Shown: piece by piece, positions 956-58,161 of the stretch | Layout: each line of letters starts with the position of its first letter | How positions within the stretch are numbered: position 1 is the first letter of the stretch | Source of the DNA: Halichondria panicea | Taxonomy: Eukaryota; Porifera; Demospongiae; Suberitida; Halichondriidae | Length of the DNA: 64,000 bases | Assembly: GCF_963675165.1 (NCBI RefSeq) | Contig: NC_087383.1 | Coordinates: 1,390,479 to 1,454,478 of the forward strand | Direction: 5' to 3' | Made by a program: the position numbers and the translations under genes | Notes under the pieces: model-generated | Told to the model about the DNA's origin: nothing | The model's database searches: none | The model's input: only the letters and a program-made list of their open reading frames with translations

Positions 956-3900
956 TGTGTGTGGGTGTGTGTGTGTGTGTAGCTATATAGTGTGTACGTG
1001 AACAGTGTACAATCATGAGTGTACACAGCTAATCCAGACTTGCATGTTTTAGAAGCAAATTTTATTGTAAGTTCAATAACAATCATTATGATGCTCACCA
1101 GTTGCTCTTTCCCTGTTTTGAAGGTGCTGTATCGTATGAACGGAGAGTCCAGCTCCACTGGCACTCCAGCACTCTGACTCTGTATGATCTTGTTCTGCTT
1201 CTCATTCTCAATGCACTGCAACAATAGTAAAGCTACCTCAAGTCAATGCACAACACTCACACACGACACCTTGTTAGCCCGTAGATACCATGACTACAAT
1301 ACAACAAATGTATTTTATTAACGGGATACTAAGAAAGTTGTAGGTATAGTAGGGATACTAGAATACAATGGCTCCACGGAGGCACTTTTCTCATGTAGAT
1401 CTCTCTCACCATCACACATACAAAGCACACACCCACACACTCCACACACACCCCCTCACCTGAGAGTAGTCGGTCATCCACTGAGCCTTCTCGTTGATGG
1501 TGCTGGCTATTAGCGTGAGTGACTCCGCCTCCACCTCCCCCGGGCACTCGATCCTCATGCCTCGGTAGTGGACCTCTACCACCTCAGAGGATGTGCACTC
1601 GGACACCTTACACTGCCTCAGGGGGAACACCTGTAGTCCAATTACATGTATAATAATAAGAGTTACGTATTCAATATTTACAACCACTGATTGCTTTCAG
1701 TTTTAGTCGGAAGTCCTCCACACATTAATTTTATTGAATTAAGAAAACAGAGGCTATATAGAGTTGATACTGTAACACCTTTCAGTCGAAATTCCTCTAT
1801 TTTATTGAAGCTAAACACAGAGGCTATATACATGTACATTTAGTATAGATTTGATACCACCTTCTAACTTACTCAAGCTATTATTATGGACATGGCTTAA
1901 TTAAGCACCTTGATGATTCTGTAGCAGTCTTGTGGTTTCTTGGTAACCCTCATGGTAACCAGCAGGTGTTTAGAGAAGAGGAAGCAATGTCGTGGCTGTG
2001 TCCGTAGTCTGCCCCGGGTGAGAGCGGTGAGGGAGGTGATGGAATTAGTGGGTTTGTCATCAGCTCGTAGGGCTTGGAGGAGTCCTGCATGAGGTACATA
2101 GTTCAATGTGCATGTCAAGCTATATTTGTCAACTTTTGCGCTCCCAATTCTTTCTCTTGACTACAGCTATATATATCCATATAAACTATGCTATCTGGAT
2201 GATATAGGGCTATATATAGATACATACAGCACATGCATCATATTGTGCAGCATAAGTACTTGTAGAGGCCTCTAGAATTATGCAGGTTACCCTCCATGAT
2301 GATGAAAGTGATACGCAGGATTCTTTCCTAGAGGCTTAAGTTATAAAAAGTTCTATATTTACGAGGCTAACCTTGTCTGATGAGTATCTGCTCCTTATCC
2401 AGCAGCTGCACACAGCCTCCCTCAATCATGTTCTCAATCTTGAGTACCTGACGAATATTCTCACTCTGTGTCACCTCATCCGTCACCGTCTATTGGGGGG
2501 GGGGGGGGAACGTTACTCTATTATTATTTACCGTAATGCTAGAAATTTAGTGTGTGATACAGACTAGTGCTATTTATGTGAGCGCCTATCATAATTATAT
2601 GACATCATTATTATTATATACATTTGTATCATGTACACAATTACTTTATTTGAGACCGGCACAATCGCCATTGAAATCGCGGCATTTAATCTAGCAAATT
2701 AATTAATCGCATAATAAAAATCGCATTATGTTTTTACATAGCCTCAAAATTGCCCAAAGCGCAATCTCATATATAACTAGCACTATGGAGATATCCTTAG
2801 ACTCCTTTCGCATTTGAGATTTATCAAACAATCATAGCTATACATGTGCAAGTAGATACAGGATGTACTTCTAGTGGTACCAGGTGTACTCCTGGTGGTG
2901 CTTATAACTGAGAGTACGCGTTTCCATAGTAATTAAAGTACACGAACCACTCACCTTTTGTATAAACTCCAGCTCTGTGATTGTCTCAGTGATAGTAACG
3001 TAGTCAACGTGCTCTGTGGGTGTGTGTGCTTTCAACTCTTGCAGGTCTTGTATGTAGGAGGAGATTCTTTTGAGGGGAGTTACAAGTAGGGAGTCCAGTG
3101 ACACGCCTGCTGGACCCGGCCGCCCCTGGATTGTTTCCAGGAAGGACTTGAATGCAGGCTTGGTCGTGAGGGCTAGGAGCACCTATGTGAATACGGGATT
3201 AATTAGCCTACTAGCAGACCACATAAAGGTTTTATATATATGGAGCATGATATTTCCAGTACATAAATGTACAGCTGATATGGAAATCATATCAGATGTG
3301 GAAGAAATATAACCCAAGGAGGCAATGTTCATAGAACACCAACCACCATATGTATACTAGGCCTGGTAATATTAATTGTGTATAATTATACATGTACAGC
3401 ATAGAACCATAATTATAATTATGATTCTATGATGAGAAGAATCAAATATATGAAAGTGTTATATTCCTTACATCCAAGGCATGACTGTGGTTCCCTATGA
3501 ACTGGTGGTAGATATCCATCATGGGCACAAACAACTTGAGAACATCCCCTACGTATGATGAAAGAAACCATAATTACCATAATTAACAGTAAACAACTAA
3601 TTTGATGAAGTACGATAGCTATGCTACTAGTTCATATATGAACAAATTAAATCAACTATGGCAGTTCGAACAGCAACTGTTGTGCAATAACAGCATATGG
3701 GAATGTTTATGTTGTCTCAAGCATCGGAACTTCATAAACATCTGCTCAGCTGCACTGTATCTTAATGTGATGCGTTAACAACATTATTTTTATGTTTATA
3801 TTATAACAGTTATTATAATTATACAAGATATGATTTGTTGATAATTAAGTTAATACCGTATAGTGAGTATATTTCGAGGGTATAAATGTTCGTGGTTTTC

Positions 3901-6900
3901 GTGGATTAGGCATGTAACGCGAACATTTATACCCACAAATTTATTATCACATGCATTGCATGCTGCAGAAAGGCATGCTATTTCGCGAAAATTAAATCCG
4001 CGAAAACCTTTCCAAAGTGCATTTCCGCGAAAGTTTATACCCTCGAAATATATACCCGCTATACAGTAGTCATTACTCACCAAGGACCACCACTGGCCAC
4101 TTCTCAATCTTCGAGTGTAAACCACGAAGATACAGCTGATGGAACAGGAGCAGCTCCTCACTATGGTGATTGATTTAACATAAACATGACTACAAGATAA
4201 CAAGCAAAAACAAGTTTGGGTAATAAATGAAAGTGAAAGCTTACAGGAGGAATTTGTGGTACTCTTACCAATTTCTAAAGATGTCTGTGACCTGTTCCTT
4301 AGAGAGTGGTGGTTTCCTAGAGCCTGAGGCAATGTCACACTGAGGTAGGTACTCTTCAGCCAGCAGCTGCAGCTGACTCACGTAATCCTCCTCTGAGGCC
4401 ACAAACTTCCATATCAACTGCATGGAGTGGATCAAGGGAGCAGTCACTTCATACACTTAATTGCTATAATATTATAAACTGAGATTGGTAGCACTTTACT
4501 GCTGTACAATGCACAGGTCAGCTATATAATTATGGCAGATACATGTAATAATTACAGCACTGTACAATCACTTCTTTTTCAATGCTCTCGTATAGTTAGC
4601 CAGAGCACAACTAAAGACATCCTACTAAAAGTAGCTAGTCAGACAGAGACAAGTTAGCTGTTGTGTGTACCTGGTTCCTCTTCTTGAGCACTGCAGACTG
4701 GGGTGAGTCAAGGTAGTCCCTCACCACACGCTTCCAACGTCGTCTGATGAGCCACCCACGAATGTAGCTTTGAAGCTGTGTGTAGTGTGTGGAGTGTGTG
4801 AAGTGTGTGTATATAGTGTGTGAAGTGTGTGGAGTGTGTGGAGTGTGTGAAGTGTGTGGAGTGTGTGAAGTGTGTGGAGTGTGTGTATATAGTGTGTGCA
4901 GTGTGTGAAGTGTGTGGAGTGTGTGAAGTGTGTGGAGTGTGTGAAGTGTGGAGGAGTTACTTATTAGTATGATCGACACTGTGCTGAGTCTGCATTGTTA
5001 TGACTGACAGCTAGCTATAGCTGATATTGTTAGGTAGTGTGAATAACACACACGTATGTGGATGACTAGACTAAAGTTAGAGAAACGCTTTGAATGAGTC
5101 TGAGCCATTAGTCAAGTTTCATTACAGAAGCCACTGTTTCAAAACTATCAGCTTTTTTTTCAGAATAACTAGATCAAAGCTCACAAACTGCCAGTCAAAA
5201 TAGACAAACTTGTTTATGTATCAAGTATGTTTTAAGGACTAACAAAGTTCATCAAAACTGTCAAATATCAAGCCAGTCAATACACGTGCATACTTGCTTG
5301 TCAGTACATAATTCAGTCCACAGAATGCAACACTATATATGTGGTACCAGAATTCTTTAAATTTCCTTCCGTATTTCTCAGAAATTCAGGAAGCTTTTCC
5401 CTTATCTACCATTGTGATAATCTGATGCACTCACCACTCTAGCTTGTTCGTCTCTATTGGAGCTCGTCTTCTCAGGGGAGGCACTGACCACACCCAACGA
5501 TGGTCTCTTTCGAGTGTGAGCAGGAGATGCACTTTGAAGCTGTGAGGATGTGTGGGTGATGGAGTACCAAGTAGGTATTCACTGTCATAATTTATATGAA
5601 AACAAATAAATGGAGAAACCCCTAGTCGTGTGTGGAGAAAGAGTTACGCCTAGATATTGCCATGCTACCTGACAAATCTTTTGAGTGTGAGCAGGAAATG
5701 TACTTTGAAGCTGTGAGGATGTGTGGGTGATGGAGTACCAAGTAGGTATTCACTGTCATAATTTATATGAAAACAAATAAATGGAGAAACCCCTAGTCAT
5801 GTGTGGAGAAAGAGTTACGCCTAGATATTGCCATGCTACCTGACAAATCTTCCGAAACCTCAATCAATAGAAGCCAGGCTAAGCTTTGTGTTTAGGAAGC
5901 TAACTAAGAAACTTAAGACTACCTCACACCCGATGTTTCAATTCAGCAGTAAATGTAATGTATCACAACAATCATAATATACACCGTCAGCTAGAGCACA
6001 CAAGCATTAATGCTGCTTTATACATCAAGGCTTTCTCCGTGGTGTGGGAAAATCTACAAATTGTCTGACGAGTATGGTCAGCAAACAAGGAGAGAGTGTG
6101 GCCTCTGTCTGTACACACAACTAAAATGAGCCAATTTACCACAGAGAAACAGTGCCCTTTGAGGGGAGGGGGCTTAAGCTTGTCAAACTATAGCCATACA
6201 TAAACTCCACTACTGTATTATAGCCAAAGGTACAGGACTCTGGCAATTACATGTGTTTCGCCAGCTAATATGTAAGTAAATGCATGTAATTAAACCGTAT
6301 AACACTCACAGAAACGCTCTATAATTATAATTATAAAGCATGCAGCAGGTACATGTGTCACAGACCTCAGACCTAGAGAGAGCTTTTAGACTAGCTGATA
6401 CAAATGAAACACTTCTCTTATCATCTATGATCAATTCCCATTGATCATTTGCTTTTGGTATCAAATAATGGATACAGTGTTTACTTACAGCTCCTCTGAG
6501 GTGTTGAATGTCTTCCTGTGCCTGGAGGTTGGCTTTGGTGAGGTGGTCCACCTCTGACTTGTTAATGGATAGTGTGCCCCTCAGCTCTACACACAGGTCT
6601 CTCTGTTCCTCTAGGTCTCGCAACAGCTTGCTCATACTGTGTGCATGAGTGAGGAAACAGTGGGTCACTACTGCATGGTGAACCTGGATTGCTTCAGCCT
6701 TGGAAGCATTAGTCACAAGTGCATGAAACTCAGTGTATGTCTGTGGAGATATAGTAATCTCTACGTGTTTATTACATCTGTGTCACAGTCACAAGTGCAT
6801 GAGACTCAGTGTATGTCTGTGGGGATATAGTAATCTCGACGTGTTTATTACATCTGTGTCAACACACTGGAGTTTTTTAAGCTGTCGCAACTGACAATAA

Positions 6901-18975: not shown

Positions 18976-21900
18976 ATGATCTCTACTGCTACTCTAACAG
19001 AAAAGGTCCAACGGCTGCAGAAGTCTCCATCCAACATCAGGAACATCTGCATTCTGGCCCATGTGGACCATGGTATAACCTATAACATGCACACTGGCTA
19101 GCTAGCTGCTATCAATATCTCAGAGAGTATGAGTGCTGTGTGTGTATCTACTTACCTCTTTGACTTTTGTCATACAAGCAGGCCATCGTGACCCGTCTAG
19201 TCTGTAGCTTGTTGCAAGACTTGCCTTGTAAAGACTGTCTAAGCTAGCTGCAATAATAATTCTATTAGCCTTGAGTTCAATCACAACTAGCTCTGTTTCC
19301 CTATCAAATATTGATGCTATACTGGCTATCTGACTGTATGCTAATAGTTAATTGTATGTCACACTACTGTATTGTCTCTCCACATATGGTTATAGTGGCA
19401 TGTGCAAATTGCAGTATTTGCTATCAACTTCCTAATAAGCCATGGTCTTGTGTGCCCACAGCAGCTCTGCTCTGTATAATTGGACTTGTGATGTGTCTAG
19501 CAGATATATAGAGTGGAGTGCATTTCCTGTTTTCCCCAACCCTAAACTTTCTGATCTCTCGTTATCTTTCGCTCTTACTTGATTAGCGAGTCAACAAAAC
19601 CCATATCAATATAACTAATTGGTGCTTTTTAGTGGGAACCCGTTTTCTTCTGGTGTTGTTTAAACTTTATAGTCATGCTTTTGTCCTTTAAGTATTGTTT
19701 ACATTGTGCATGCACTACTTAACATGTTCTGTAACTTCCCTCAGGGAAGACTACACTAGCTGACTCACTGGTGGCTAGCAACGGGATAATATCTCAGAGA
19801 CAAGCTGGAAAGGTGTGCATTTCGTCGCTAGACTTGTTTAATTGCTTTGTTCTCCTGTAGCTGCGTTACCTTGACGATCGTGAGGATGAACAGCTGAGGG
19901 GAATCACGATGAAATCGAGTGCAATAGCTCTACAATATATAACAAGTGAGCTTACACGTACCTATACACATGTCCTACACACACGTACCTGTACACATGT
20001 CCTACACACACGTACCTGTACACATGTCCTACACACACGTACCTGTACACATGTCCTACACACACGTACCTATACACATGTCCTACACACACGTACCTGT
20101 ACACATGTCCTACACACACGTACCTGTACACATGTCCTACACACACGTACCTATACACATGTCCTACACACACGTACCTATACACATGTTCTACACACAC
20201 GTACCTGTACACATGTCCTACACACACGTACCTACCTGTACACATGTCCTACACACACGTACCTACCAATATATCTCCCAGACACTGCCTCTTTTGATCT
20301 CAAACTTTGAGTGTTTATAACTTGAGTTAGGATTGTGCATTTTCACAATTACTAGTCTCTATACACATGCAATGTTAATTATATCCTAAACTCTATCTGT
20401 TTTGATATAATTATAGCTAACTTCATAATGGGTTAGGATTGTGCATTTTCACAATTAAAAAAAATACCTTCTATAGCCCTTTGAAATACCTAGTCTGCTC
20501 TGAGTATTGATACATGTACTTCTCTCTTCACAGGTCACAATGAGTATTTGATTAACCTGATAGACTCTCCCGGTCATGTGGATTTCTCGGGTGAGGTATC
20601 TACTGGCCTCCGACTCTGTGACGGTGCTCTGGTTGTCGTGGACGCCTTGGAAGGGGTGTGTCCTCAGACGCAGGCCGTGTTGCAGCAGGCGTGGGTGGAG
20701 GGGATCAAACCGTGTCTGGTCATCAATAAAGTGGACAGGCTTATATTGGAGCTGAATTACTCGCCGACAGAGGCCTACTACCATCTGCAGCAGATCCTGG
20801 AACAGGTGAGACCAGCCATGCCCTGAGGCTATAGTGCGTAGTGTATGTTAGGGGGTGGGGCTTCCTTTCTTTTGGGATGATTGCTACTTATAATATTATA
20901 GTTCCTTCAATTGCATTTGCACTGTGAAAAATTACTAGGATTAGCCGGGGAAGGCACCAAAAAATATTGAAACAAGGGAGAGATTGGAGTATATAGTAGA
21001 CATGTAGGAGATGAAAGGGCGTCTAATTTACGGATTAATGTGGCGAGCCCAATAGTGAGGGAGGCATTGTCTAGCACCGTGTTTGATGGTGTGTGCAGGT
21101 AAATGCTGTGACTGGGTCACTGTTCACCACTGAGGTCATGGAGGCAGCTGCCACTGGAAACAAGGTACGGCATATACATGTACGTAACACTGGAACTAAC
21201 CGTCCAGTAACAATATCTCTTCGTTTAGGATCATTCCACTGACAAGGACGCTTCTACACAAGAGGGGGGAGAGGTAAGATTATAATGTTATCCATTTGTT
21301 AATTGCATCTCACTAGTCATGTGATTCCACTAAGGAGGAGGTGGTGTACGACTGGAGCGCTGGTCTGGAAGATACTGATGACTCGGCAATTTACTTTTCC
21401 CCTGAGTTAGGCAACGTGGTGTTTGCATCCGCTCTGGATGGGTGGGGCTTCAGGTATAGTCACATTAAACACAATATACCTCTAAAAGATTTTAAATGTG
21501 TTTTCTCTTGTTCAGTGTCAGCCATTTTGCCGAGCTATACTCCAAGAAACTTGGTATCCGTGCCGACGTGCTCAACAAGACCTTGTGGGGCGACTATTTC
21601 CTCAACACCAAGAGCAAGCGAATATTCAAAGGAGCTCAGGTAAGAGAGATCGAGTTGTTCGAAAGAGATTTCGTCTGTTACTGTAATTTTCATTTCTGAC
21701 ACTGCAGGCCAAGGGCAAGAAACCTCTGTTTGTACAGTTTGTACTGGATAATATATGGGCAGTGTACGATGCAGTGGTTGTGAGCAAGTGAGTGTGCCTG
21801 TGTTGTCAAAGTATTTTTAGCGGCCGAAATTGAGTCAGAAATTGTATCCCATACTATTGTGTAGTTTTGTGTGCCAAGAAATTTATTACTGTTTATTTGT

Positions 21901-24900
21901 GTAGGGGCCTGCTGACCGTGTTAGACCAAACACTTGGACACACTTAGTTGTCCCCACACTTATTGTATGCACTGAGTGTACAAAGCACTTATACTCCCAT
22001 TTAGCAAGCCCTCCTCATACACAGGCACACATGCACACGCACACACACACACACACACGCACACGCACACAGGAATAAAGAGCGTATTGAAAAGATCGTG
22101 TCGAGCATGCAGTTGAAGATAAGTGCTCGAGACTCACGCAACAACGACCCCAAGGTACACTTGGCCGCCATTTTCAACCAGTGGCTCCCGCTGGCTCCGG
22201 CACTGCTATCCATGGTAGTGGCCCACCTCCCTAGTCCAGAGCAGCTGTCTGGAGATAGAGTGGAGAAGCTGATGTGCAGTAATGCAAGAATCTTTGACTC
22301 CTTTCCTCTGGAGACACAGAGACTTAGAGATGGTGAGGACAGTTGGAGTTTCTTTTATTACTAGATAGATATCTTACATGTACCTGTATGTAGGAGAGAT
22401 GTTCATGTGTTAATAACCTTAATGATATCTTCAAGTCTTCTTCCATTTGCAATTTTTATAGTTCCCTGTGTTTTGTGTAGATTTCATCTCTTGCAATAAG
22501 AGTGTGGACTGCCCAACGATCATCTTTGTCTCGAAACTCTTCACTGTTGACAGACAAACGCTACCAGTACACCAAGTCAGGTGAGTATGTTCACTGTAGC
22601 TCTCAGAGAAACTCTAGATTTTGATATCCACGACATTTGTGATTCAGGATCTTCCATATATGTACGTTTAGGCTTGAATATAGTTATTATGTCCTATACT
22701 TATTATGTAGTGCTGAGGCAGCCTTAATTGATAGCCTTAAAATCTAAATGAAGTTTCTAGGGTACGTACAAGTATGATGTAATAATTATGATGTTGTGTG
22801 ATTGTTTCAATGCAGACCACTGACTGAGGTTGAGATAGCTGAGCGTAGACAGAAAGCCAGGGAGGCCCACCAGGCAAGGATGGCAGCACGACAGGAAGAG
22901 GAGGAGGCCACTCGTGAAAACGGTAAGTGCTATAAACTTTATAGACCTTCTAGCCAATTTTGAGACAGTGTTCGATCGTTAATATCTTCAATTCTTAACT
23001 TTTGTTTGACGTACATATGGGAGTTTCTCTCCTAGATATACAATTGGGTTTTCTTAACCACATATCCTTTCTCTTACAGAGTCTGCACCTAGTTCCACAA
23101 GTGCCTCGAGGCAAACCAGTTCCGAAGAGATTCAAGACCCCACCATCTTTCTGGCGTTTTCTCGAGTCTACAGCGGCGTTATACGTCGAGGACAACAGCT
23201 GTTCATCTTGCAGCCTCGCTACGACCCCAGCGATGACATCAAAATGGTCGATACTGCGCAAGGCCTCCCAGAACACTGTGCTAGCTTCACTGTGGGAGAT
23301 CTCTATATACTAATGGGGAGACAAGTACTACCTGTCGACGAAGTTCCTGCTGGAAACATTGTTGGAATAGCTGGAGCCGAGGATTACATCATCAAATCTG
23401 CCACCATTTCGAGCACTCTAGCATGCCCTGCTTTTCGGCCCATGGTCTTTGCAGCTTCTCCTATAGTACGAGTTGCCATAGAACCCCTAAACGCTGCCGA
23501 CATGCCAGCTCTGGTGAAAGGAATGAAATTGCTGAATCAGGCAGATCCGAGTGTGGAAGTGTACGTTCAAGAAACAGGGGAGCATGTACTAGCCACAGCC
23601 GGAGAGGTCCATCTCAAGAAATGTATCGACGATCTGCGCAAATCTTATGCGAAAGTTGACGTTCGAGTTTCGGATCCAATTATTCCATTTAGGGAAACTG
23701 TGATTCCCCCTCCAAAAATGGACATGGTGAATGAAGTAATTTCTAGCGAGAATGAGATTACAGGCCTCTCTACTCTTCAAGATTCTAGGGAACAAATGAC
23801 CAATACCACAACTTCTCATAAGACTCAGTTGTTGAACGTGGAGGCTGTTTCGTTGCCTGAGGACGTCACAAAACTGTTAGAAACTAACTCCCAATTTCTT
23901 AAATCATTGGCACTACTAACATCAAGCAAACGTGAAGTCAAGCTCAACCAAGAAACAATCGAGAAACTTCTAGAACTGAAATCATCTTTGAAATCTGCAT
24001 TCGAATCTCCCTGCCATGGCGATACCAAATGGGAAAATGCCGTCGATCGAATCTGGTCCTTTGGGCCGAAACACATTGGTCCAAACATTCTACTAAATTG
24101 TGTTTCTTCGTACCAACGTTCTTCTGTATGGAGTGTTCTTGAGACCCAGTCAACCAAGTGCCCCTTGAGAGACAACGATAATAGTATTGTGAGTGGATTT
24201 CAATTGGCCACACTATCGGGTCCGTTATGTGAGGAGCCGATGCGAGGGGTGTGCTTTGTCCTCCGAGAATGGAACGAGATTGAGCTGATAACCGAGGATG
24301 CGAACGGTCAGTCTAAAAGAGTTGGCCTGGACACCAAAAACATATCAAAAAATACTGGAGAACAAAATTTCGAAAACTCTACAAGTGTTTTTGCCCCAAG
24401 AAAGAAAATAACTTCTGGCCAGTTGATATCGTCAATGAAAGAAGCTTGCAGGAGAGCGTTTCTGGCTCGACCAGCTAGACTAATGGCTGCAATGTATACC
24501 TGTCGTATCCTAGCAACGGCCGATGTCTTGGGACGATTATACAGTGTCATTGGGCGTTGTGTTGGACGAATTATATCTGAGGAAATGATCGAAGGGTCGA
24601 CTGTGTTCTCAGTTGAAGCACTCATTCCAGTGGCAGAGAGTTTTGGGTTTGCAGAAGAACTGAGAAAGAGGACGAGTGGTCTAGCCAGTCCACAGCTCGT
24701 CTTCAGTCACTGGGAGGTCAGTATAGTAATTCAACTTGTTTAGCATTCCTTTGTTGCTTAAGGTAACATAAGTAGAGTACCGTATAGCGCGAAATTTTCG
24801 AGGGGCTTAATTTTCGTGGATTTCGTGGGTTAGCAATCCTACACGAAAATTAAGTCCACGAAAATCGTTCTTTACCTGCTATAACGTGCAAGATTTAAAG

Positions 24901-30659: not shown

Positions 30660-32255
30660 CTACTTTTTCTTTGGCTGGCTAATAGATTCAGAGGCCCAGT
30701 CAGTGTGTACCGTGAAATGAGATGGCTGCTGTCTTTTGGCCGAGAACATGGATCCCTTGGTAACAGTCCTCTCAGTTAGAGATTTGCGTCTCTTGAGTTG
30801 TTCTCTGGCTGGTTTCCTATCACTTGGTTGACCTTGGTCAGCCATTGCAGTTTCTCTACATGCATGCAGAAGAGAAGTAATGCATGCATGTAGGTTAACT
30901 AAACATGTTATTATACTACAAACCTTGCAAGTTGCTGGAAAGCGTTTTGGGTTGCTCTTTCTTCCCTTGTTTTGCGAGTAGGTGTCATCACTGCTGAGCG
31001 TACCCTCGTACGATGGAGGGCAGCCCTGGCAGCAGGGTCAGGTCTCTTACCATGAGAGCTCAGAGTGCGGAAAAAGTTGGCAGCAACCTCTTTGTCTATA
31101 GACATTAATAATTGAAAATGATTTAGGAATCTAGCGCATTATCGAACCTTTTGGGTTAGCACTAGCAAGCCACCCCTCGACTCCAGGAACAAGATCTGGT
31201 GAAAGCGTGGCTTCCAAGTCCTGCATGCAATGAATATAACAGTACATGTAAGTTGCTTTAATATCACCTTCTGTACTGCTGATCTTGGTCGTTCAAAGGA
31301 AGCTCTTGGATTCCCTGAGTTGGAGTAGAAAATATAAATAATATACGAGGATGCCTTTTTTTAATAGCTAACCTGTCAGTTGTGTTTGAGGTTGAATTGG
31401 CTCCAATCGTTGATGCCCTCGTGAAGAGATGGGCCGAGACGACATGAGCTACGAGAAACATTGTGGAGTTAAAAAAAGATGAAATGATGAGTAGAAAGAA
31501 AAGATGAAACTTTCAAAGAATAAAGGTCATAATTAGTGCCTAAGGTTAATTGTGTCCTTCCTCCTCTGGCTATCCAGCAAACACTCAAACACTCATACAC
31601 TTTACTAAATACTGTAACTATACTACTATACTTACTGCAGAATCAGACATTCTTCTCTGACGACTCTGCTGGACCTGAGCGTGTCTTCCTCTTTCCTTCT
31701 CTGCACGAAGTTTTCCACGCAAGTCAACATCAACAGGAACAGTGCCTGAAGCATATATATATATACAACATTGCAGTATAGCTGCATGTGTTTGTCTGCA
31801 ATGATTCGACTTACGCATAGGGTCGTACACAAGCCCTTGGTAAGCATTCACTCGATACAGGTTAGGATCAAACTTCAGCTTGGCCAGCTCTGAGGTTGTC
31901 AGCACTTCATTGCCAGCATCTCCAACTGCATGTATACAGACATACATGCAACATTCACACTGGTATAACTTCTATAGGTGTGTGATCATGAGTTGCTTAC
32001 CTGTTCTATCCCCAATGTAGTCATCGTAAAACCTCTCTCTGATATCACTCTCAAACTCTACTCTTCTCGAACGAGACAGTTGTCTAGTTGGTGGGCTCCT
32101 CCATACCAAGTCATCCTCCTGTATGAAATGACATTCAGATCTATATAGAAAATGGAAATGATCCTTTTGCATACCCCTTTAGGATGATAGCCTTGTCTTG
32201 ATTCCAGTGGTGTCCTTGGGATTCTTAAAGCGTCCTTACTGTTACTATAGGCCAT
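30660..32255 (-). CDS. WL-repeat paralog A (unrecognised, possibly C4orf17-related)
   Basis: Nine exons, 327 aa: 32175-32255 (ATG), 32001-32118, 31815-31925, 31636-31745, 31373-31448, 31268-31314, 31148-31220, 30924-31095, 30660-30855; phases close exactly. Basic, low-complexity protein without signal or membrane segment. Features shared with paralogs B and C: a DDLVW...FYDDYIGD segment, VGDAGNEVLTTSELAK (compare TGDAKNEVPITNVAK in C), one helical unit VEGWLASANPKDKEVAANFF whose Asp codon is split by a phase-1 intron, and a C-terminal HFTVHTDW motif. From memory, the WL unit aligns without gaps to a segment of the uncharacterised human C4orf17. Function unknown; a cytoplasmic or ciliary role is only a guess. 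Divergent from paralog B over 434 bp. Confidence 0.82.
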
Positions 32256-32689
32256 TTTATATTATCTAGACTATATTGACGAGAATTCTTTCAGTAATTC
32301 GCACATTAGAGGTTGCGTTTATAGGTGTCAAATTTTGTAGCAATAGGCTATCAGCAGTTAGAAAGCTTAGCTAGTCTACTACACTATTAGCTTAGTTTAG
32401 TTTAAGGTAGGCAGCCTAGCAACAAAGATGGATCACATGCCCACTATGAGAAAATCAAAGTCATAGCTTACCTGCACAATCTCTTACATAACCTCTGGCT
32501 AGTGAATGACAAGATTCATAGAAGTAGAGCTGTCTGCCCGCTAAGTCTGCACTGGAAACATTATTGGATGCTCCTTGGCAACACCAGATAGCCTTCAGAC
32601 AGAGATACCTCAATAATAGCTAGACCTATAGCTAGACTAAAGATTTGTTTAATTGGCAAGGCTACCACCCACCCCTCTACCAGTGCAGT
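32256..32689. promoter_or_regulatory. Divergent promoter region between paralogs A and B
   Basis: 434 bp between opposing start codons of two homologous genes, so they probably share control elements. No TATA box is obvious. Confidence 0.5.
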
Positions 32690-34559
32690 ATGGCTGAGCC
32701 TATGAAACGTCCAAGCACTCGAGAAAGAAGAGCGGGCTCTGCAAAAGCAAGACTCACTCCAGACACATCTTTGTTAGCTGCTGAGAGACAACAGTACATT
32801 GTCAAAGAGGCAAGGGAAAGGGCTAAGTCTGCAAAGAACATCAAAGACAAGCACAAGGCATCTGCAAAGATGTTTACTGGAGGCTCAGCAAAGAGCAGAT
32901 TTGCTACAATGTATGCTACAGACTATGATGGCACCTTTGTGGCCCCAGCAGAGCCAAGACCTACTTCTCCAACAAGGAGAAACAATCCTCATCCTGGAAA
33001 GGTAAGCTCTGCAAAATAGTGGGAGGGGCTGCTCCTATCTAGAATTGAGACTCATTAGTAACACTATAGGCCAAATATTTACAGAACACAGTGACACTGC
33101 ATGTTGTTTTTGTTGTTTGCACAGCAATTTATGGTGTGGAGGATTCCCACAAGAGATATAGGAGGGACTCCATATGAAGAAGGCCTTGAGCTACCCCCTG
33201 AGTACATTACAAGGAATGAAAGTGAGTTAATTGAGGGTCAATAAAACGTATTTTTTTAGCTATTCTCAACTTCACATAGATTTTGATGCCATTGATGAGA
33301 TTTCTGGGAACTTGGGAGGCCTTCGTCTACCACCTGCTCGGCAAACAAGTCAGGAGTATGGTGCATACCTTCGCAAGCTCCCTCAATCACAATGTAAATG
33401 ACTATAGCACATCTTATATAGGATTCATTTAATCGTTGCTTTGTTTCTACAGATCAAGAGCCCCTCAGACCAAGAGTGAAGCCAGTGTCAAATGAGGTAT
33501 TACAGAACTACAGCCATAATTTTTAAATTTTATCTCTGTACACAGGTACTACTGCGTACTGTTGCTGGTGGCAACCAAGACGCTTTGGAGGATTGGCTCG
33601 ACACAGCTTCACCTGAAGGTACATAAGCAATGCTATAATAGTAGGGTCTATAATTATAGTACGCTGAGACAGTTCAGTAATGTAAGTGATTACATTTCTC
33701 TCATTTCTCAGAACGACACACAGTCCTGAAGATGCTCAAATCAGCTGAGGAAGCTCAAGTGAAAGATGTGAGATCACAGTAACCCTCGATCTAACTTACG
33801 AAATTTTGACTAAATTGCTATCCTCTTATTATAATTATGCAGGCTATAAACAGTGTGATGCAACCAACAGCTGCTAAAGCAGTGCATGGATGGCTGCAGA
33901 CAGCTGATGGTAAAGGTACGAACACATCTATTCAATTATAAAAGCAAAAATGTGCTATTGGAATCGGACTACAGCAACTCCTACTTACAAACTTTTAGTT
34001 TACATGTACTATCTTTTCTTCTTTCTGTACAGAGCGTGATGTTGCAGTCCGTCTCTTTAGCTCCCTCGGTCAGCGTCAGGGTGGTGGCATGAGGAAGCGC
34101 ACTTACTCAGAGCCGGGTACCCCTGATGGCCGCCCCCTGTCACGAAAAGCCATGCCCCCTCTCAGACCTGTCTCACAAAGCAGTTATGGGTGAGTGCTCT
34201 TAATAAACGACTAACCTCTGACATTGTATATAGGGAGAGAAGCTGTGTATCTATATTCGATATTCAGTAATGCATGGAATTTTATTGTGCCTTAAACATA
34301 CATGTGTAACGTTACACTACATTCTACCCCCTGCAGTGTTCAAGGAGAGAAACTTCGCACTCGTCGACTAAGTGCCCCCCCTGGTGCTCGTCCCAAACCG
34401 CTCCCAGCTGGCATATGGCATCACCAGTCTGTCCGTGACCCCCCGCCACAAGTATATCACAGAGGGTCTCTCTTTGGGGGGAAAAGGGAGGACGCCTCTC
34501 ACTTCACCGTACATCCTGAGTGGCCTGACTACTATGGCCCAAGAGACACAGTGCACTAG
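32690..34559 (+). CDS. WL-repeat paralog B (unrecognised, possibly C4orf17-related)
   Basis: Nine exons, 382 aa: 32690-33001, 33125-33221, 33280-33393, 33453-33496, 33546-33618, 33712-33767, 33843-33915, 34033-34189, 34337-34559; phases close. The N-terminus is very basic (SAKARL, SAKNIKDKHK, GGSAKSRF) and leads to TRRNNPHPGKQFMVWRIP, a segment also in paralog C. Two helical units follow: ALEDWLDTASPEERHTVLKM and VHGWLQTADGKERDVAVRLF, each split by a phase-1 intron in the conserved Glu codon, each first half in a 73-nt exon. The C-terminus holds GIWHHQ and HFTVHPEWP. An in-frame upstream ATG at 32645 exists. Function unknown. Confidence 0.85.
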
Positions 34560-35106
34560 CTTTGGATCTCACAAAATGTACACAATTTTGTATTTAGATA
34601 GAGAACTGTGATAAAATTAAATTTACAGGTCAGCACTAATTGCATGGTTGAATTGTTACAGTGTGTGTTTCAATGCAGTGTTGTCTCATACTGTTGTTCC
34701 TCCCCCATCACATTATAATTTTTGCATGCATAATTATTTCGTTAATAGTTTGTGCTCATGTGATGTTTATACTTATAAGGACTGCATGCATGTATAGCCA
34801 TATCATTGTTTAACAACAACTTTCTGCGTCATATTTCGTTAACTGTGTATACACACACGAGCAAGGTCAACTTGATTCATAATAAATATTTGCACACGAC
34901 AGACCTCCACATAATGAATACCATGGTATGTCAGAAATTTGGATCTTAGAAAGAATGCATGAATCTATGTTTAGGACAGACGATTGGTAAAAAATAATGT
35001 GCATAAATTAATTTGTAAAAATTGACAGTTGCACAATCTAAGTGTTATGTGCCAAAACTACCTAATTGCCGTGGAGTTACATATTCTAGTAAACACTAAT
35101 TCAGTT
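34560..35106. other. Convergent intergenic gap
   Basis: Lies between the stops of paralogs B (+) and C (-). AT-rich, with an AATAAA near 34879 that may serve as a poly(A) signal. No other structure seen. Confidence 0.5.
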
Positions 35107-37317
35107 TTATGCCGTTGGCCACTCTGGATGGTGTGTAAAGTGTTGTCCTCTGTACTTCTGTGGCTGATTAAACATGCCCCCAGCATGTGTAATGCCAGCG
35201 CCAGTGGGTTTTGGTAGTATCCGGTTGTGCCAAATCTCCGGCTTCAAGTCAATACCTCTCTCGTCCCTGAAATAGAAACAATTTAAGGAATGAGTAGATC
35301 AATAATAGTAATAATTTCTATGGGCTCTCAAAAACGTAAGTGTTGGGCATTCAGGGTTTATAGGTGACTTAAGGTTTATATGCAAGCATGCAGTGTTATA
35401 ACAATTCTAAGTACAGAAGTGAGCATACTACTATACATTAAATCGTACAGTGCACTTACTTGGTTGCTCGCATTGTCATCTTCTTTCCATGCAAACCAAA
35501 GCCTTTCCCATCAAAGACAGCACTTGCCGTTTGTCCTGTTTCCGGCTGCTTCTTGCGTCCTTGTTGATGATGCTTGGAGTAGCTTCCTCTGTGAGACTTG
35601 CTCTGCTGGTGAGAAGCTGAGTGTCTCCTAGGACGCAGTGTAATGGGATAGCTGTTAGCACGATAGTGGTTGTCTAAGCCGTTCATTTGATAGTTCTGAA
35701 TTGTGTAGAAACCTGGCGGCTGAAATCCTTGGTTGTCGTCAGTGGCGATCGCAAGTGTTTCCAAAACGTTAAGCAAAATTTTCCGCTCTGCACAATGAAA
35801 AATGGATGATTATAGCTATAGCAATAATAGTGTGATGGACTCTTCATACCTGATTCAGATGCATTCTGTAGCCAGCTCTGCACTTTTTCACTGGACTCTG
35901 GCTGTAGAACACTGTCTAATGCCTGCAGTATTAGTAAATCAGTTTGCAGCATTTCCTTTTGCCAAATGCTCATACATGCACTGTAGCTATATATACAAGA
36001 AATGTCCCTCACCAATTAACTTGTATATGAGCCTCCATCTACTATAAACATACCTTAGTCAGTCGTACATCTTCAGAGTTATCGTAGCCAGTTTGTAGCA
36101 TTTGAAGAACCAATTCTCTCTCTGTAAGTTGCACAGTGTCTGTTAATTCTAACACTGTCAGAATGAACCTCACCTCTAGAGGATGCCACCTTCAGCCATT
36201 TCTTCAACACAGGAAGTGACCCCTCTTTGACTGTACCTTTTATCATTCGACTCTGTGCGTAAAAATAAAGAAATTCAATATGACTATAATTCTACTATAT
36301 ATATAGTATATACTGATAGCTAAGACCATGCACTGCTCTCACCTGTGGACTAGCTGGTCGAAACATTTTCTTTGACTCTGTACTAGCATATCTGGGCATA
36401 ATTTGAGCCTTTGTTCCTGAAACTCCAGGCAGTAGACAAGCCCCTGATGCTTCAGCTGTGGGCAAGATGATACAGGATGCTCAACTAGTCTATTCTAATA
36501 GTGTAATGGTAAGGAATATTACCTGAGGCACTCTTCTTTCTCGGAGAGCCTGGATACTCTATTTTGGCAACGTTTGTGATAGGGACTTCATTTTTAGCAT
36601 CCCCAGCTGCCATGCATAAGATACATTTAAGAGCACAGTTATAGTTGTAGATGGTAGACACATTGATTTCACAGCTCACTGTTATAGTCGTTGGTGTAGT
36701 CCTCATAGAATCCTTCGTTGATGTACCTCCATGTGTCCGGGGGAGGGGGAATGGCCCTGTGGTGCTTGTGAGTGCGTCCTGGAAACTGCCATACCATGAA
36801 TGCCTGCAAACACCCACAACATTAGTGAGCTGGTATGGCTTCAGCTAAGGTGGGTGGGGCTCTTTTGCATGCAGATGCAGTGTGGACAATCCCAGCTAAG
36901 ACAATCACTTACATTTGATGGATGGGGGTTGTTTCGTCTTGTACTGGAAGCAGGTCTCATCGGGACAGGTGTACCTCTCTTCTTTGGGCCGAAATCCTCT
37001 AAGTACTTTGTCGTCCCCCATTGTGGGTCAACTGATGCAGCCTCTTTCTCTTTCCCCTGCCCTTGAAAAATGTGTGAAGCCTCTTGTTCTCTTCTTGACT
37101 CCAGAGCAGACTTGACTCTCCTCCTTGGCACTCTTGTGTGGAGCTCTGGAATTCCTGACATAGGTCTTTGCTGAGCTGTTGCTTCTTTCTCTGAGTTGTG
37201 GGGCCCATAGCCTGAGTCTTTAGAGAGTGGGTCACATTGAGAGGCAGACTGCAGACGAGCACCTGCTGACTTGCGACGCTCTAGACACCTCAAGCTTGCT
37301 TGAGAAGACATGTTCAC
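35107..37317 (-). CDS. WL-repeat paralog C (unrecognised, possibly C4orf17-related)
   Basis: Nine exons, 477 aa: 36913-37317 (ATG 37317; 37311 also possible), 36680-36803, 36523-36606, 36343-36455, 36174-36252, 36054-36121, 35850-35922, 35460-35787, 35107-35266; phases close. It shares STRRNNPHP and AFMVWQFP with paralog B, FYEDYTNDYN and GDAKNEV with A, and has two WL units: VLKKWLKVASSRERELVLQM and VQSWLQNASESERKILLNVL, both interrupted by the same phase-1 intron. The last exons encode a basic His/Gln-rich stretch, then PEIWHNRILPKPTG and HFTHHPEWP. No signal peptide or membrane segment. Confidence 0.83.
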
Positions 37318-37536: not shown

Positions 37537-39603
37537 CTATACCACAGGAAATCCAGCGTCAGATGCTATGCCGCATGTATTTACACCTCTTCGCATTAGA
37601 ATGTACCCACCATCTCCCCAGGTTGTACCGTAGCTGCAGAAAGAAAGAGATAGAGAAAAGGAATGATCAATTTAAAGTATCATTTCCTTCAACTTGCCTG
37701 TTTTTTACGATCCAATAAGCTCCGTAGGTAGCATCTGTGCCGTATCCCACGACAACCATTTCATGAGTAGCATTTCTCGGATCAGTACTGCAGCTGCTGG
37801 AACTGTAGACACCTTCCCTATAGAACTGTGAACAAACAGCATTCATTACACCATTAGCTTGATGGACTGCATCTGTAACATCCGAAGTGTATACAAGAAG
37901 CTATTATATTATGGTATGAGCTCAATGTGACAGGTGAGATCATTGTCTCTCAGTAATAAGGTAGAGTTTTGGACAACAGTATTGAAATAGGAAGATATGA
38001 TAAATCGATATAAATGGAAACCGTGCGCAAGAGTTCTCATGTTTACAGCATTGCTATAGCAATTGACATTACCTGAAACACTCTGTGCATATGGTCAATC
38101 GCAACAGTCACAGGACCTTCCATTTGCACAGCCTCAGCTAGTGCCTCTTCATTGCCTGACTCGATAACTCGAATACTCGTAATCTTAGCACCAACATAGT
38201 CTGGACTGAAGTTACAAAAGCCACTCTGCATGGGGAAATAAATAATTCCAAATTCAATAAGGATCAAAATCAAAGCTTTCAAAGGGTTTAAGCTATACGT
38301 ACATACCACTGACTTGTAGGGATAGTATGCACTCGTGTCAATTCCTCCATTTTTGATTATGTACTCCCACGACGATATGTAGTTACCATTCTGACAAGCT
38401 GCATTGCCGTATGGCTCTGTAAATAGAAGGGGAACAATTATATGTGGAAGAAATACACACCATGCCGTAAGTTATATAGTTTCTGGTAATAATCAATGGA
38501 TTTGATATTAAGTTGTCAACAATTAAGTGTGTAACTTGCTTGAGCAGTCTAAGATCTCTTGCTCGCTCAGTGCAACAAGGTCACGTGATGCGATGGCATG
38601 TGCTCCTTCCACTGCACCTACACTTGCAAACGCAAAACAGGAGTGACAACGATAGTCCTCCTGCAGCCGTAAAAATATGTGCATCAAGATGTATTCACAT
38701 ACATATTATACTGCAGTGGCATTACTTGCTATCAATAAGAAGAGCTAAAAATCGTAATCTGATCTATATTATGGGCCCCACGGCTACTGACCAAAACACA
38801 AAATTGAATATTAATATGCATCATGCACTAGCTACATCAGGTCTAATACCACATCACTTATATACCTGGTTTTTGACTTGCGTTACAGCACCTCTGTCCC
38901 GCCAGTCCACCAGCTCTTCTCTGAGCTGCTCCTTCAAGTGGCCATGGCTGTAGGTGCTCATAAACATATCATTGTAGTTTCCTGAGTACTGCTTGTGACA
39001 CTTGTAGAAGTCACTCCATTCTTTAAATGTCTGCAAAAAACATTTGCCATGACAAAATTATCAATTGAATTGGTCCCCTTTAATTAAATCTTTGATTTAA
39101 GCTAAGCATTCCATGTGATAGACCAAACTATATACAGACAATGATTGTTCCCAAAAGGCCCAAATTTTGAGGAAAAACGTAGATAATAACAATTATAGTA
39201 TCAAAATCCCCTGTTTAAAGATGCTACATGCACCAAACTCTGGGTACATACCTATTAAGAATGTACTAATGACAATACTTACAATATCTCCAAAGTGGTT
39301 CATCCCAAGAGTGTAACCAAGCTTCTCTTGGTGATGATTGTGCTCTTCGATGTAAGCCAAGTTGTCCATCCACACAGTGAATCGTTTCAACTCATCCTCG
39401 TACGTTTTATACTGTCGGCTGTGCTGTACCTTCCAAAGTGTCCATGCTCCATTAAGTTTATTAATCTGAGAATAAGCTCCTCTCTTGGGTAATGATGATG
39501 ATGACCCAAATGGTGTAATTATTTGACTCAACAAGAAGAGGAGAAAAAAGAGATGTCTAATAGATTGGAGGACACTCTTAAAGTAGATCATTGTACTCGC
39601 CAC
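37537..39603 (-). CDS. Papain-family (cathepsin L-like) cysteine protease
   Basis: Secreted or lysosomal cysteine endopeptidase proenzyme. Seven exons, 364 aa: 39283-39603 (ATG), 38866-39030, 38540-38660, 38307-38416, 38073-38225, 37698-37825, 37537-37633; phases agree. N-terminal hydrophobic signal (LFFLLFLLSQII); I29 propeptide (LWKVQHSRQYKTYEDELKRF, MNHFGDI, FKEW); mature enzyme starts near VDWRDRGAVTQVKNQ. The catalytic Cys lies in CHSCFAFAS instead of CGSCWAF, and two extra residues separate the oxyanion Gln from it. The catalytic His is in ATHEMVVVGYG and Asn in VKNSYGTTWGDGGY; the C-terminus CGIASDAGFPVV is typical. Two introns use GC donors (after 38540 and 37698); with GT donors the DCS-KPYGN and KNS-YG junctions would lose frame. 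Confidence 0.9.
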
Positions 39604-40038
39604 TTTTTCATTTCTTCAGCCTACTGATTTCTACGTACTGTAGGTCTGTGGCTGTTGCTTATCAAGATATCGTATATATGTCGTAGACTGGAATGCTAAA
39701 TATCTATCACCTCTTGTACACCTATTAAAGTAAGTGAATGGTCAAAAGATGTCCACATGTATCGTTACAGTGTACAAATGTGTGGGAAGACCATGTTAGG
39801 ATCTGTCTGGCTACTATGGCAACTTGTTGCATTTTAACCTCTGAGGCACGTACACAAAATAAAATTGCCTATACAGGGAGTTCACTGAACAAGGTAATGA
39901 ATACGAACACACTCAATAAACTGACAGCAAAAAAAGAACTACGTAATTATAAAAATGTCAAAAAAATTTCAGGGACACACTTCCGTTACACAAGACAAAC
40001 TGGTTAAACTATTGTGCAAAAAAATTGTTTTAAAAAGT
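39604..40038. other. Gap between protease start and M28 peptidase stop
   Basis: 435 bp that should hold the protease promoter and the 3' UTR of the M28 gene. No conserved structure seen. Confidence 0.4.
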
Positions 40039-56700: not shown

Positions 56701-57439
56701 TAATCCTCACATAATAGTACTGTACTGCAACTCTCAAACTAAATTCAATAACTGCAATTTTATTGAGACCTGCAGTTCCTTTCTCTGTATCAATGCTCGA
56801 AGCCTTAACAATTTCATTAAACAATTTCATCAAATTGGTCTACCAGTTTAGCCACATCAACTTAAACACAGGACGAACTTAGGCGCAGCCTACAGCCATA
56901 TCAAAGCACTGGGCTAGTCAAAATTGAAAGGACGGAGCCAATTTATCATAATAATGATAATGTTCTACATAAGTACATGTGAGCATTGTACTATCTATAA
57001 TGGTAAGCACAACTGGAGCCTTATCGGACAATTCTGGTTGTAGCTACCGTCATCATAGCAGTAAAATGGGATGATAACAGGGCAACCACAATATGAAAGT
57101 TTCTACAGGTAATCATACACGCGATATTATTGTATACATGTAATTATTGTACTGAACTTTGGGTGGGGAAGATACCTGTATGGGGGCAAATGCAAAGCTG
57201 GGCAAAACCACCATTAAGGCCTTATTATTGATGGCAACTAGTGATAATAATAACGTCCTTTTAGCTAATGAGAATATGTGATGGTTTACCTCGGAGATTG
57301 CCTTGCACTTTTGAACTACATTGTATGCAGATTTCTTCCATTGCAGCTCTTCAGCTTTCCTGCTGTGAGACGTACCCAAGAGTATCACTTGAAGGCTCTT
57401 GTCTCTGAGTCTATGAGGAGGAGACAAAGTAGCATGTGT

Positions 57440-57484
<45 letters not shown>

Positions 57485-57521
57485 TGTGTGTGTGAGTGTG
57501 TGTGTGTGTGCGCGAGTGTGT

Positions 57522-57569
<48 letters not shown>

Positions 57570-58161
57570 ATGTGTGTGAGTGTGTGTGTGTGTGTGTGTG
57601 CGCGCGCATGTGTGTGTGTGTGTGCGAGTGTGTGTGTGCGAGTGTGTGTGCATGTGCACGCATTAACAAAAGAAACACAGTGTTCATGTGTCTTGTTAAA
57701 CACAAGCCCTCATTCATACAATGCCTGATTGCTATTATGTGGGATCACATGATCACATTGGTACTGTAGTCAAGTTTTTGTCTGGGCTAACTTTTTTCTC
57801 AAAGCTTGTAGTTCAGTTCCAAACAGGTCCCGAGCATGATTGCATAGATGCGACTCTCTCTCAATTCTCTGTCCATATTCCCACGCATGCCTGCAAAGAA
57901 GAAGAGACATGAGACACAGGTGCTCAGTTCCCCCGTGTGTGATTCAATGTTGTTGTATGTACTGAAAGTTGATGCATGAATTATACTACCGTCTTATAAA
58001 CATTATAATTATGATTTATCAATAATAATAATTATTATTAGCAGATAGGAAAAAGTTTTGAATGTGTGGTTGTTGGTTATATCAATATCGTAATGAAGCA
58101 GCTCTCACTACCATCAATACCTCAACAGTCTTTTGCCTTCTTTCTCAGCTGAAGAAGCCAT
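44782..58161 (-). CDS. SMG5: SMG5, nonsense-mediated mRNA decay factor
   Basis: Adaptor that, with SMG7, binds phosphorylated UPF1 and promotes its dephosphorylation and mRNA decay. Nineteen exons, 1021 aa (human 1016): 58121-58161 (ATG), 57792-57890, 57290-57410, 54217-54343, 54079-54156, 50309-50392, 49992-50070, 49144-49266, 48793-48861, 48227-48486, 46845-47809, 46598-46673, 46394-46533, 46191-46247, 46015-46128, 45845-45898, 45615-45768, 45392-45566, 44782-45031; phases close. The N-terminal 14-3-3-like/EST1 region has [28 protein letters not shown] and [11 protein letters not shown]. The 965-nt exon holds a basic then acidic Ser-rich linker ([23 protein letters not shown]). A coiled coil ([18 protein letters not shown]) precedes the C-terminal PIN domain ([29 protein letters not shown]), which in SMG5 is known to lack full catalytic residues. 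Introns of 3.7 and 2.9 kb contrast with the rest. Confidence 0.96.
45085..45289. mobile_element. MITE family A, copy 3
   Basis: 205-bp element flanked by TA. Starts CCGTATAGCGGGCTATTTTC, ends ACTCGCTACACGG; eroded relative to the 24780 copy. Last SMG5 intron. Confidence 0.85.
47955..48210. mobile_element. Non-autonomous element with CAGGGCT ends (hAT-like?)
   Basis: 256-bp block that begins CAGGGCTGCAT and ends ATGGAGCCCTG, inverse copies with one mismatch. It contains G-runs and ggggcaaatt words on both sides. No clear target duplication. It sits 16 bp from the donor of SMG5 exon 48227-48486. Confidence 0.65.
48900..49115. mobile_element. MITE family B, degenerate copy 4
   Basis: Shares tgttttgcgagcatcaaaca, cacacgatccttgcca and tctgctaatgtggct with the copies at 13953 and 16406. 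Ends are eroded. SMG5 intron. Confidence 0.75.
49450..49565. repeat. Short tandem copies of ccctgacaaccacccctca
   Basis: Three partial copies (49453, 49497, 49549) about 45-52 bp apart with intervening CA runs, in an SMG5 intron. Confidence 0.8.
50393..54078. other. Long SMG5 intron without recognised content
   Basis: 3.7 kb between exons 54079-54156 and 50309-50392. A 156-codon open frame at 51167-51637 (-) has no recognisable domain or good codon pattern. No MITE ends of the CCGTAT type noticed. Confidence 0.6.
54344..57289. other. Long SMG5 intron without recognised content
   Basis: 2.9 kb between exons 57290-57410 and 54217-54343. A GC-richer patch at about 54600-54900 has no convincing open frame. 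A short ga-repeat lies near 56382. Confidence 0.6.
57434..57655. repeat. (GT)n microsatellite, about 220 bp
   Basis: Long GT tract with GA and GC interruptions just upstream (gene sense) of the acceptor of SMG5 exon 57290-57410. It creates poly-HT and poly-CV pseudo-frames on both strands. Confidence 0.95.

Follow-up and report, generated by a model that had tools for sequence, protein, structure and literature searches.

Three adjacent sponge genes with a repeated, intron-split WL unit look like a divergent TBATA-like branch

Introduction

How did three neighbouring genes of the sponge Halichondria panicea come to carry the same intron-split unit, and to which protein family do they belong? 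Their locus lies at 30660..37317 of the window, i.e., of the whole 64,000-nucleotide stretch of DNA analyzed here, whose coordinates are used throughout. We propose that genes A, B and C are paralogs in a divergent TBATA-like branch, that they arose by exon-pair and gene duplication, and that they may act as microtubule or flagellar adaptors. Taken as a whole, we give this account slightly better than even chances.

Results

Three adjacent paralogs, with A and C on the minus and B on the plus strand, had been described in an initial annotation, and open nine-exon readings as well as blastp between the genes bear this out. The spliced models, with exon borders assigned manually on the basis of splice signals and of homology, comprise nine exons each for gene A (30660..32255, minus strand; 327 aa, pI 10.4), gene B (32690..34559, plus strand; 382 aa, pI 9.9) and gene C (35107..37311, minus strand; 475 aa, pI 9.9). 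They are free of internal stops, and all 24 introns, eight per gene, have GT-AG borders. Exon start phases run 0,0,1,1,0,1,0,1,2 through the whole of each gene; the chance that one gene matches a given series is about 2e-4 to 4e-4. Alignment columns of introns 1 (within one column), 6 and 7 coincide in A, B and C, those of intron 2 in A and C, and those of intron 5 in B and C. Computed for a one-sequence database, blastp E-values between single genes were 2.4e-24 (B-C), 2.8e-9 (A-B) and 9.0e-7 (A-C). All three proteins are basic (pI 9.9-10.4) and rich in Arg, Pro and Ser. Judged by these models, A, B and C look like three intact protein-coding paralogs, and we conclude that they arose as copies of one another.

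The shared terminal motifs that had been noted earlier are likewise present in the spliced proteins. An RRNNPHP/FMVW segment is common to B (RRNNPHP at 32975..32995, plus strand) and C (36919..36939, minus strand), and a GDA-NEV segment to A and C. All three genes carry the C-terminal HFT-H--W motif, which reads HFTVHPEW in B (34500..34523, plus strand), HFTHHPEW in C (35119..35142, minus strand) and HFTVHTDW in A (30696..30719, minus strand). In B and C we recognized RRNNPHP by visual inspection; the N-terminal fragments of all three proteins had no Pfam match, the start of the SPATIAL profile included, and scanning the C-terminal fragments gave no Pfam match for HFT-H--W. We rejected a NOPS match (E 0.11), the sole one among these six fragments.

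The WL units, for which one or two per gene had been claimed, number two in B, two in C and one intact copy in A. Every one of the five is cut by a phase-1 intron in the codon of a conserved acidic residue (Glu in B and C, Asp in A), and the first-half exon measures 73 nt in four of them and 79 nt in unit 1 of C, as first described. In B (plus strand), unit 1 is encoded by exons 5 (33546..33618, 73 nt) and 6 (33712..33767, 56 nt), and unit 2 by exons 7 (33843..33915, 73 nt) and 8 (34033..34189, 157 nt), where exon 8 also holds a linker, as it does in C and A. The corresponding exons of C (minus strand) are 5 (36174..36252, 79 nt) and 6 (36054..36121, 68 nt) for unit 1, and 7 (35850..35922, 73 nt) and 8 (35460..35787, 328 nt) for unit 2. 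In A (minus strand), exons 7 (31148..31220, 73 nt) and 8 (30924..31095, 172 nt) encode the intact unit. Exons 5 (31373..31448, 76 nt) and 6 (31268..31314, 47 nt) of A occupy the positions of the first and second halves of unit 1, without the WL core and with phases as in B and C; as we read the gene model, they are a decayed remnant of that unit. We consider it improbable that the exon models of A, B and C are partly wrong, e.g., that exons 5 and 6 of A are skipped or intronic: the two exons align with B and C at low similarity, but their reading frame, GT-AG borders and phases are exactly those of B and C.

We compared these five units with each other and with the single unit of gene D, a gene on another contig of the same genome. 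All 15 pairwise comparisons scored above shuffles (z 4.9 to 8.2), with p values at the floor of 20,000 shuffles for 14 pairs and of 1e-4 for B1-B2. A position-free scan with the gene D unit carries more weight, because the units compared pairwise had been chosen by their WL motif; in each of the three genes its best window was a WL unit, with p always at the floor of 2,000 shuffles. The hydrophobic moment at 100 degrees, as for a helix, exceeded that of shuffles in both unit halves (p 0.0002 and 0.002), and in helix 2 the moment at 90 degrees was larger than that at 100 degrees. We infer that the WL unit consists of two amphipathic helices, predicted to form a hairpin.

It had been put forward that the locus originated by duplication of an exon pair and then of the gene, with inversion. 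This history is supported by unit identities that are mostly higher between genes than within them, and by gene D having a single unit. Units in the same position of different genes share 14/39 (B1-C1), 13/39 (B2-C2), 11/39 (A2-B2) and 10/39 (A2-C2) residues, compared with 8/39 (B1-B2) and 10/39 (C1-C2) inside a gene; in these pairwise counts the margin is small, with A2-C2 equal to C1-C2. The WL exon pair was hence probably doubled before the gene copies arose. Sequence and intron evidence suggests an ancestor in which an RNNPHP segment lay N-terminally and an exon pair of phases 0-1-0 encoded a single WL unit. As this pair starts and ends in phase 0, it is copyable without a frame shift, and it may have been doubled in the ancestral gene. 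The two-unit gene would then have been copied twice in place, giving the order -,+,-, and the core of the first unit would later have been lost in A.

Gene D (G000:C6:6216244-6219284, minus strand) matched PF15256 (SPATIAL, i.e., TBATA) in two stretches with 71.9 bits (E 1.2e-19), over the gathering score of 27 bits, and by this score it is a clear member of the family. Like B and C, it has RNNPHP before the WL unit, in the same order, and like all three genes it encodes a basic protein (pI 9.5). Its WL unit has the phase-1 intron in the same Glu codon, which in this one species is thus found in the five A/B/C units and in that of D. Unlike A, B and C, gene D has seven exons, one WL unit with a first-half exon of 82 nt, and no HFT-H--W motif. 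Moreover, its introns beside RNNPHP are placed otherwise than in B and C, so that the clearly common introns are only those of the WL units. In blastp, C matched D over the WL units (1.6e-8 and 5.1e-5), B matched D at 0.004, and A matched D at 0.012 over a long stretch of 21% identity.

As whole proteins, A, B and C stay below the PF15256 cut-off, with 16.6 bits for C and no SPATIAL match for A or B. A fragment of C with both WL units reached 28.8 bits against the cut-off of 27, and its single units 19.9 and 15.0 bits, a weak to moderate match overall, where E-values of unit fragments are somewhat optimistic because the fragments were cut after the whole-protein Pfam result was known. The B unit fragment scored 12.9 bits and was outscored by three unrelated families; the A unit fragment had no PF15256 match. 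Matches of unit fragments to TetR_C_16, Barstar, CHAD, DUF6176, DUF6235, Ferritin, Death_3 and GRIP were each below their own cut-off and were discarded. The profile searches that we made thus did not place A, B and C in unrelated families. Within a TBATA-like superfamily that includes PF15256 and gene D, these genes appear to form a divergent branch, because D belongs to PF15256 and has the same intron in its WL unit, C matches D, and the C fragment exceeds the cut-off. Alternatively, the WL unit might resemble that of SPATIAL merely as a short amphipathic hairpin in an unrelated family, as could be argued from a similarity only 39 residues long and from A and B scoring under the cut-off. We regard this as very unlikely in view of the C-D blastp value of 1.6e-8, the intron that cuts the A/B/C and D units at one and the same codon position and phase, and the N-terminal RNNPHP, for which B, C and D agree in order.

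Gene E of the same genome (G000:C9:6182454-6183665, plus strand) resembles B and C in its RKHNPQP segment (blastp C-E 7.8e-6, B-E 1.9e-4), and the NPHP segment of D aligns with those of E, B and C. It has four exons, unlike A, B and C; we found no WL unit in it by the position-free scan (best window p 0.26) and no blastp match to A. Further matches in the same genome were dropped as chance, i.e., of C on C14 and C4 (E 2.0 and 3.5), of A on C2 (E 0.10) and of D on C2 (E 0.031).

We searched solved structures in the PDB up to E 10. Neither the A/B/C three-protein profile nor gene C gave a match, and gene B gave one DNA polymerase IV sequence (E 1.8), taken as noise. The WL-unit profile gave six matches, the best being a nanobody (E 0.24). 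Helix 2 of the WL unit, i.e., the ER helix, aligned over 14 residues with two different PDB sequences (E 0.25 and 0.3) of SMRP1 (SPMIP6, sperm microtubule inner protein 6); the match excludes the WL half of the unit, and since the nanobody scores as well, we took it as noise and leave it as a lead. Such a match, together with the basic, Arg/Pro/Ser-rich composition, would suit proteins that are structural, either microtubule inner or axoneme-binding, and not adaptors for transport. We find this reading unlikely, as the SMRP1 match is at noise level and neither the A/B/C profile nor C or B retrieved an axonemal chain. Its detailed form, in which the short motifs FMVW and HFT-H--W, along with the ER helix, would sit on the tubulin lattice in the manner of small basic ciliary proteins, we hold to be just as doubtful.

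The head-to-head genes A and B leave 434 bp between their start codons (32256..32689), a possible shared promoter. As a possible sign of ciliary, RFX-regulated expression, we scanned for the X-box (RFX site) consensus GTTRCY-N1-3-RGYAAC with up to two mismatches. Two such sites occur in the A/B stretch, compared with about 0.6 expected from the window density, one lies upstream of D, and none was found in the 500 bp upstream of C or upstream of E. With the laxer left half GTNRCC and one mismatch, sites appear at 32411 in the A/B stretch and at 32241 over the start codon of A, among 33 in the window with both strands counted. A perfect GTTGCTGGTGGCAAC at 33561 sits within coding exon 5 of B. 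Neither the promoter nor the solved-structure searches support the inferred function.

Discussion

What might these proteins do? Mouse Spatial is located at microtubules. A, B and C probably act, by analogy, at microtubules of flagella or of sperm-forming cells, because mouse Spatial is reported to interact with the kinesin KIF17b in spermatogenesis (Saade 2007). Two places in the same genome (C8 and C2) match tektin above the cut-off, which implies that the genome codes for axoneme-type proteins. A, B and C may be basic, Arg/Pro/Ser-rich, mostly unstructured adaptors, where the helical hairpin or hairpins would dock a partner protein, while anchoring would fall to the N-terminal segment and to HFT-H--W at the C-terminus.

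TBATA, an animal gene that is itself poorly understood, has also been linked to UBA3. A role in control of the ubiquitin-like (NEDD8) pathway or in transcription, as proposed for TBATA, and not at microtubules, would agree with that link and with the term transcriptional regulator used for Spatial in an excerpt of PMC3832585. We think this rather improbable for A, B and C, for which Pfam searches with whole proteins and fragments gave no enzyme or DNA-binding domain above cut-off. On neurite outgrowth, the TBATA papers disagree: TBATA is described as required in PMC5343413 and Spatial/TBATA as an inhibitor in the excerpt of PMC3832585. Literature on sponges, choanoflagellates and Nematostella included none with TBATA among the matches listed.

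The human protein C4orf17, uncharacterised, presumably has an HPHP-type segment and a WL-type unit, and we take part of it to align without gaps to the WL unit of A, B and C. It may belong in one group with TBATA and A, B and C: one PCR primer, translated by hand, reads PHPRRV in one frame (excerpt of PMC4278271). In the literature searched, C4orf17 is hardly studied: it is named in 21 papers, is absent from every title and abstract, has at most six mentions in any one paper, and is never named together with TBATA. PF15256 was likewise absent from that literature, as were IPR037394, PTHR33772 and 'TBATA-like', which we take to be labels for the TBATA family.

More speculatively, and with a low probability in our own estimate, the WL exon pair could be a small, ancient, copyable protein module that belongs to animal cells with flagella and unites TBATA, C4orf17 and the A/B/C branch, and its doubling could have given a two-hairpin adaptor bridging kinesin-2 cargo transport and axonemal microtubules. 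If true, genes that in mammals are associated with the thymus, brain and testis would first have encoded components of the flagellum. A genome with D, A, B, C and perhaps E provides a defined module and a conserved intron for tracing the family, and its several members offer a simple test of an original flagellar role.

In D and in the unit fragment of C, the WL unit matches near the end of the 201-position PF15256 profile (about 158-199), and profile positions 4-43 weakly match the NPQP segment of E (12.6 bits). Compared with the profile, the WL unit is present twice in B and C, and all three proteins add the C-terminal HFT-H--W motif.

Gene models of three adjacent paralogs

The window is part of contig C7 in the 131-Mb genome G000. 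Splicing from its DNA gave models for three adjacent paralogous genes, i.e., A (32255 down to 30660, minus strand), B (32690 to 34559, plus strand) and C (37311 down to 35107, minus strand). A and B stand head to head across 434 bp, and the orientations run -,+,-. Each gene has nine exons with GT-AG introns and a single open frame ending in a stop. Exon start phases are identical in all three (0,0,1,1,0,1,0,1,2); the chance of one gene fitting a given phase series is about 2e-4 to 4e-4 with two phase-frequency sets. In the alignment of A, B and C, introns 6 and 7 coincide in all three genes, as does intron 1 to within one column. Intron 2 is shared in position by A and C, and intron 5 by B and C; the columns of the remaining introns differ.

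A perfect GTTGCTGGTGGCAAC palindrome at 33561-33575, the RFX X-box consensus, lies inside coding exon 5 of B, probably by chance. Gene C is adjoined by what by eye is a cathepsin L-like protease gene (37537-39615, minus strand) with the active-site stretch CHSCFAF, in which the Cys is retained; CGSCWAF is the usual form. Also by eye, a long open frame at 23058-24740 (plus strand) resembles an elongation-factor-2-like GTPase, and the simple Thr/His-rich repeat frames at 19861-20307 and 57116-57709 look like repeat DNA, not genes.

A, B and C as a probable divergent branch of the SPATIAL (TBATA) family

Whole-protein Pfam scans yielded a single weak lead, SPATIAL (PF15256, the family of TBATA) on C with 16.6 bits and E 0.01. 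A PF15256 profile search of G000 led to one place, gene D on contig C6, and gave no matches in 14 control genomes. The full model of D (7 exons, 444 aa) matched PF15256 in two stretches with 71.9 bits and E 1.2e-19. D reads YTRNNPHP, then an intron, then VRARHIKG. In blastp against one-sequence databases, D was found with C at 1.6e-8 for C's second WL unit (the predicted helical module of about 39 residues encoded by an exon pair) and at 5.1e-5 for the first, with B at 0.004, and with A at 0.012 across a long stretch of 21% identity. Against the PF15256 gathering cut-off of 27 bits, the fragment of C with both WL units scored 28.8 bits and that of B 12.9 bits; the A fragment had no match. A, B and C are probably a divergent branch of a known, poorly understood family. 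When G000 was queried with each of A, B, C and D, no further full members appeared among the best-scoring candidates, which sets a lower bound on membership.

A four-exon relative, gene E (G000:C9:6182454-6183665, in L025, plus strand), carries, as RKHNPQP, the segment that reads RRNNPHP in B and C, and was found with C at 7.8e-6 (blastp, one-sequence database). It scored 12.6 bits with PF15256, below the same cut-off, and no WL unit was found in it. Its start phases, 0,0,1,1, are the first four of the A/B/C series.

Downstream of gene D, on the minus strand, its last exon recurs as three partial copies, in L036 (G000:C6:6203500-6213400) at about 5930-6295, 991-1335 and 3563-3675, and from these we conclude that the D locus also gave rise to partial copies. 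Their matches contain stops or frame breaks.

WL units and their duplication

Five intact WL units are present, i.e., one in A and two each in B and C. The initial annotation had described a phase-1 intron in the Glu/Asp codon of every unit and first exons of 73 nt (79 nt in one). The spliced models bore this out for 5/5 units, the 79-nt exon being that of C's first unit. D has one unit, whose first exon measures 82 nt and which is interrupted by a phase-1 intron at the corresponding Glu codon. Ungapped scores of the six units exceeded shuffles in 15/15 pairs (z 4.9 to 8.2), and only W17, L18 and A21 are invariant among the 39 columns. In each half the hydrophobic moment for a helix is higher than in shuffled sequences (p 0.0002 and 0.002), so the unit is likely a two-helix hairpin. 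In A, exons 5 and 6 (76 and 47 nt) retain the unit phases and lack the WL core.

The exon pair is symmetric in phase (0-1-0). It was probably doubled before the gene was copied, as also proposed initially, since same-position units are mostly more alike between genes (14, 13, 11 and 10 identical residues of 39) than units within a gene (8 and 10), a narrow margin, and since D has a single unit. We regard it as highly probable that both the exon pair and the gene were duplicated here, a genuine and clean example within a divergent branch of the family.

Possible function

With pI values of 9.9-10.4, A, B and C encode basic proteins with a high content of Arg, Pro and Ser, which combine short conserved anchors with one or two predicted hairpins. 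We read them as putative adaptors. Tektin matches above cut-off occur at two places in G000. An X-box scan allowing up to two mismatches gave a mixed picture, with two sites in the 434 bp between A and B (about 0.6 expected), one upstream of D, and none upstream of E or in the 500 bp upstream of C. Searches with an A/B/C profile, with B, with C and with the WL-unit profile gave no match to solved axonemal proteins above noise, which counts against a microtubule or flagellum role; we consider such a role possible, though less likely than not. The evolutionary reading and this role, taken jointly, stand slightly better than even.

Human C4orf17, to which the WL unit had been likened in the initial annotation, is handled as a germline (cancer/testis) gene (PMC4278271). 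Papers disagree on Spatial (TBATA): one describes it as required for neurite outgrowth (PMC5343413), whereas another lists it as a neurite-outgrowth inhibitor and transcriptional regulator (PMC3832585). A phosphopeptide of it appears in boar sperm data (PMC8322956). Mouse Spatial is paired with KIF17b in the title of Saade 2007, as cited in two reviews, where one of the table rows citing that work gives SPATIAL with Co-IP (PMC9083010, PMC7279445).
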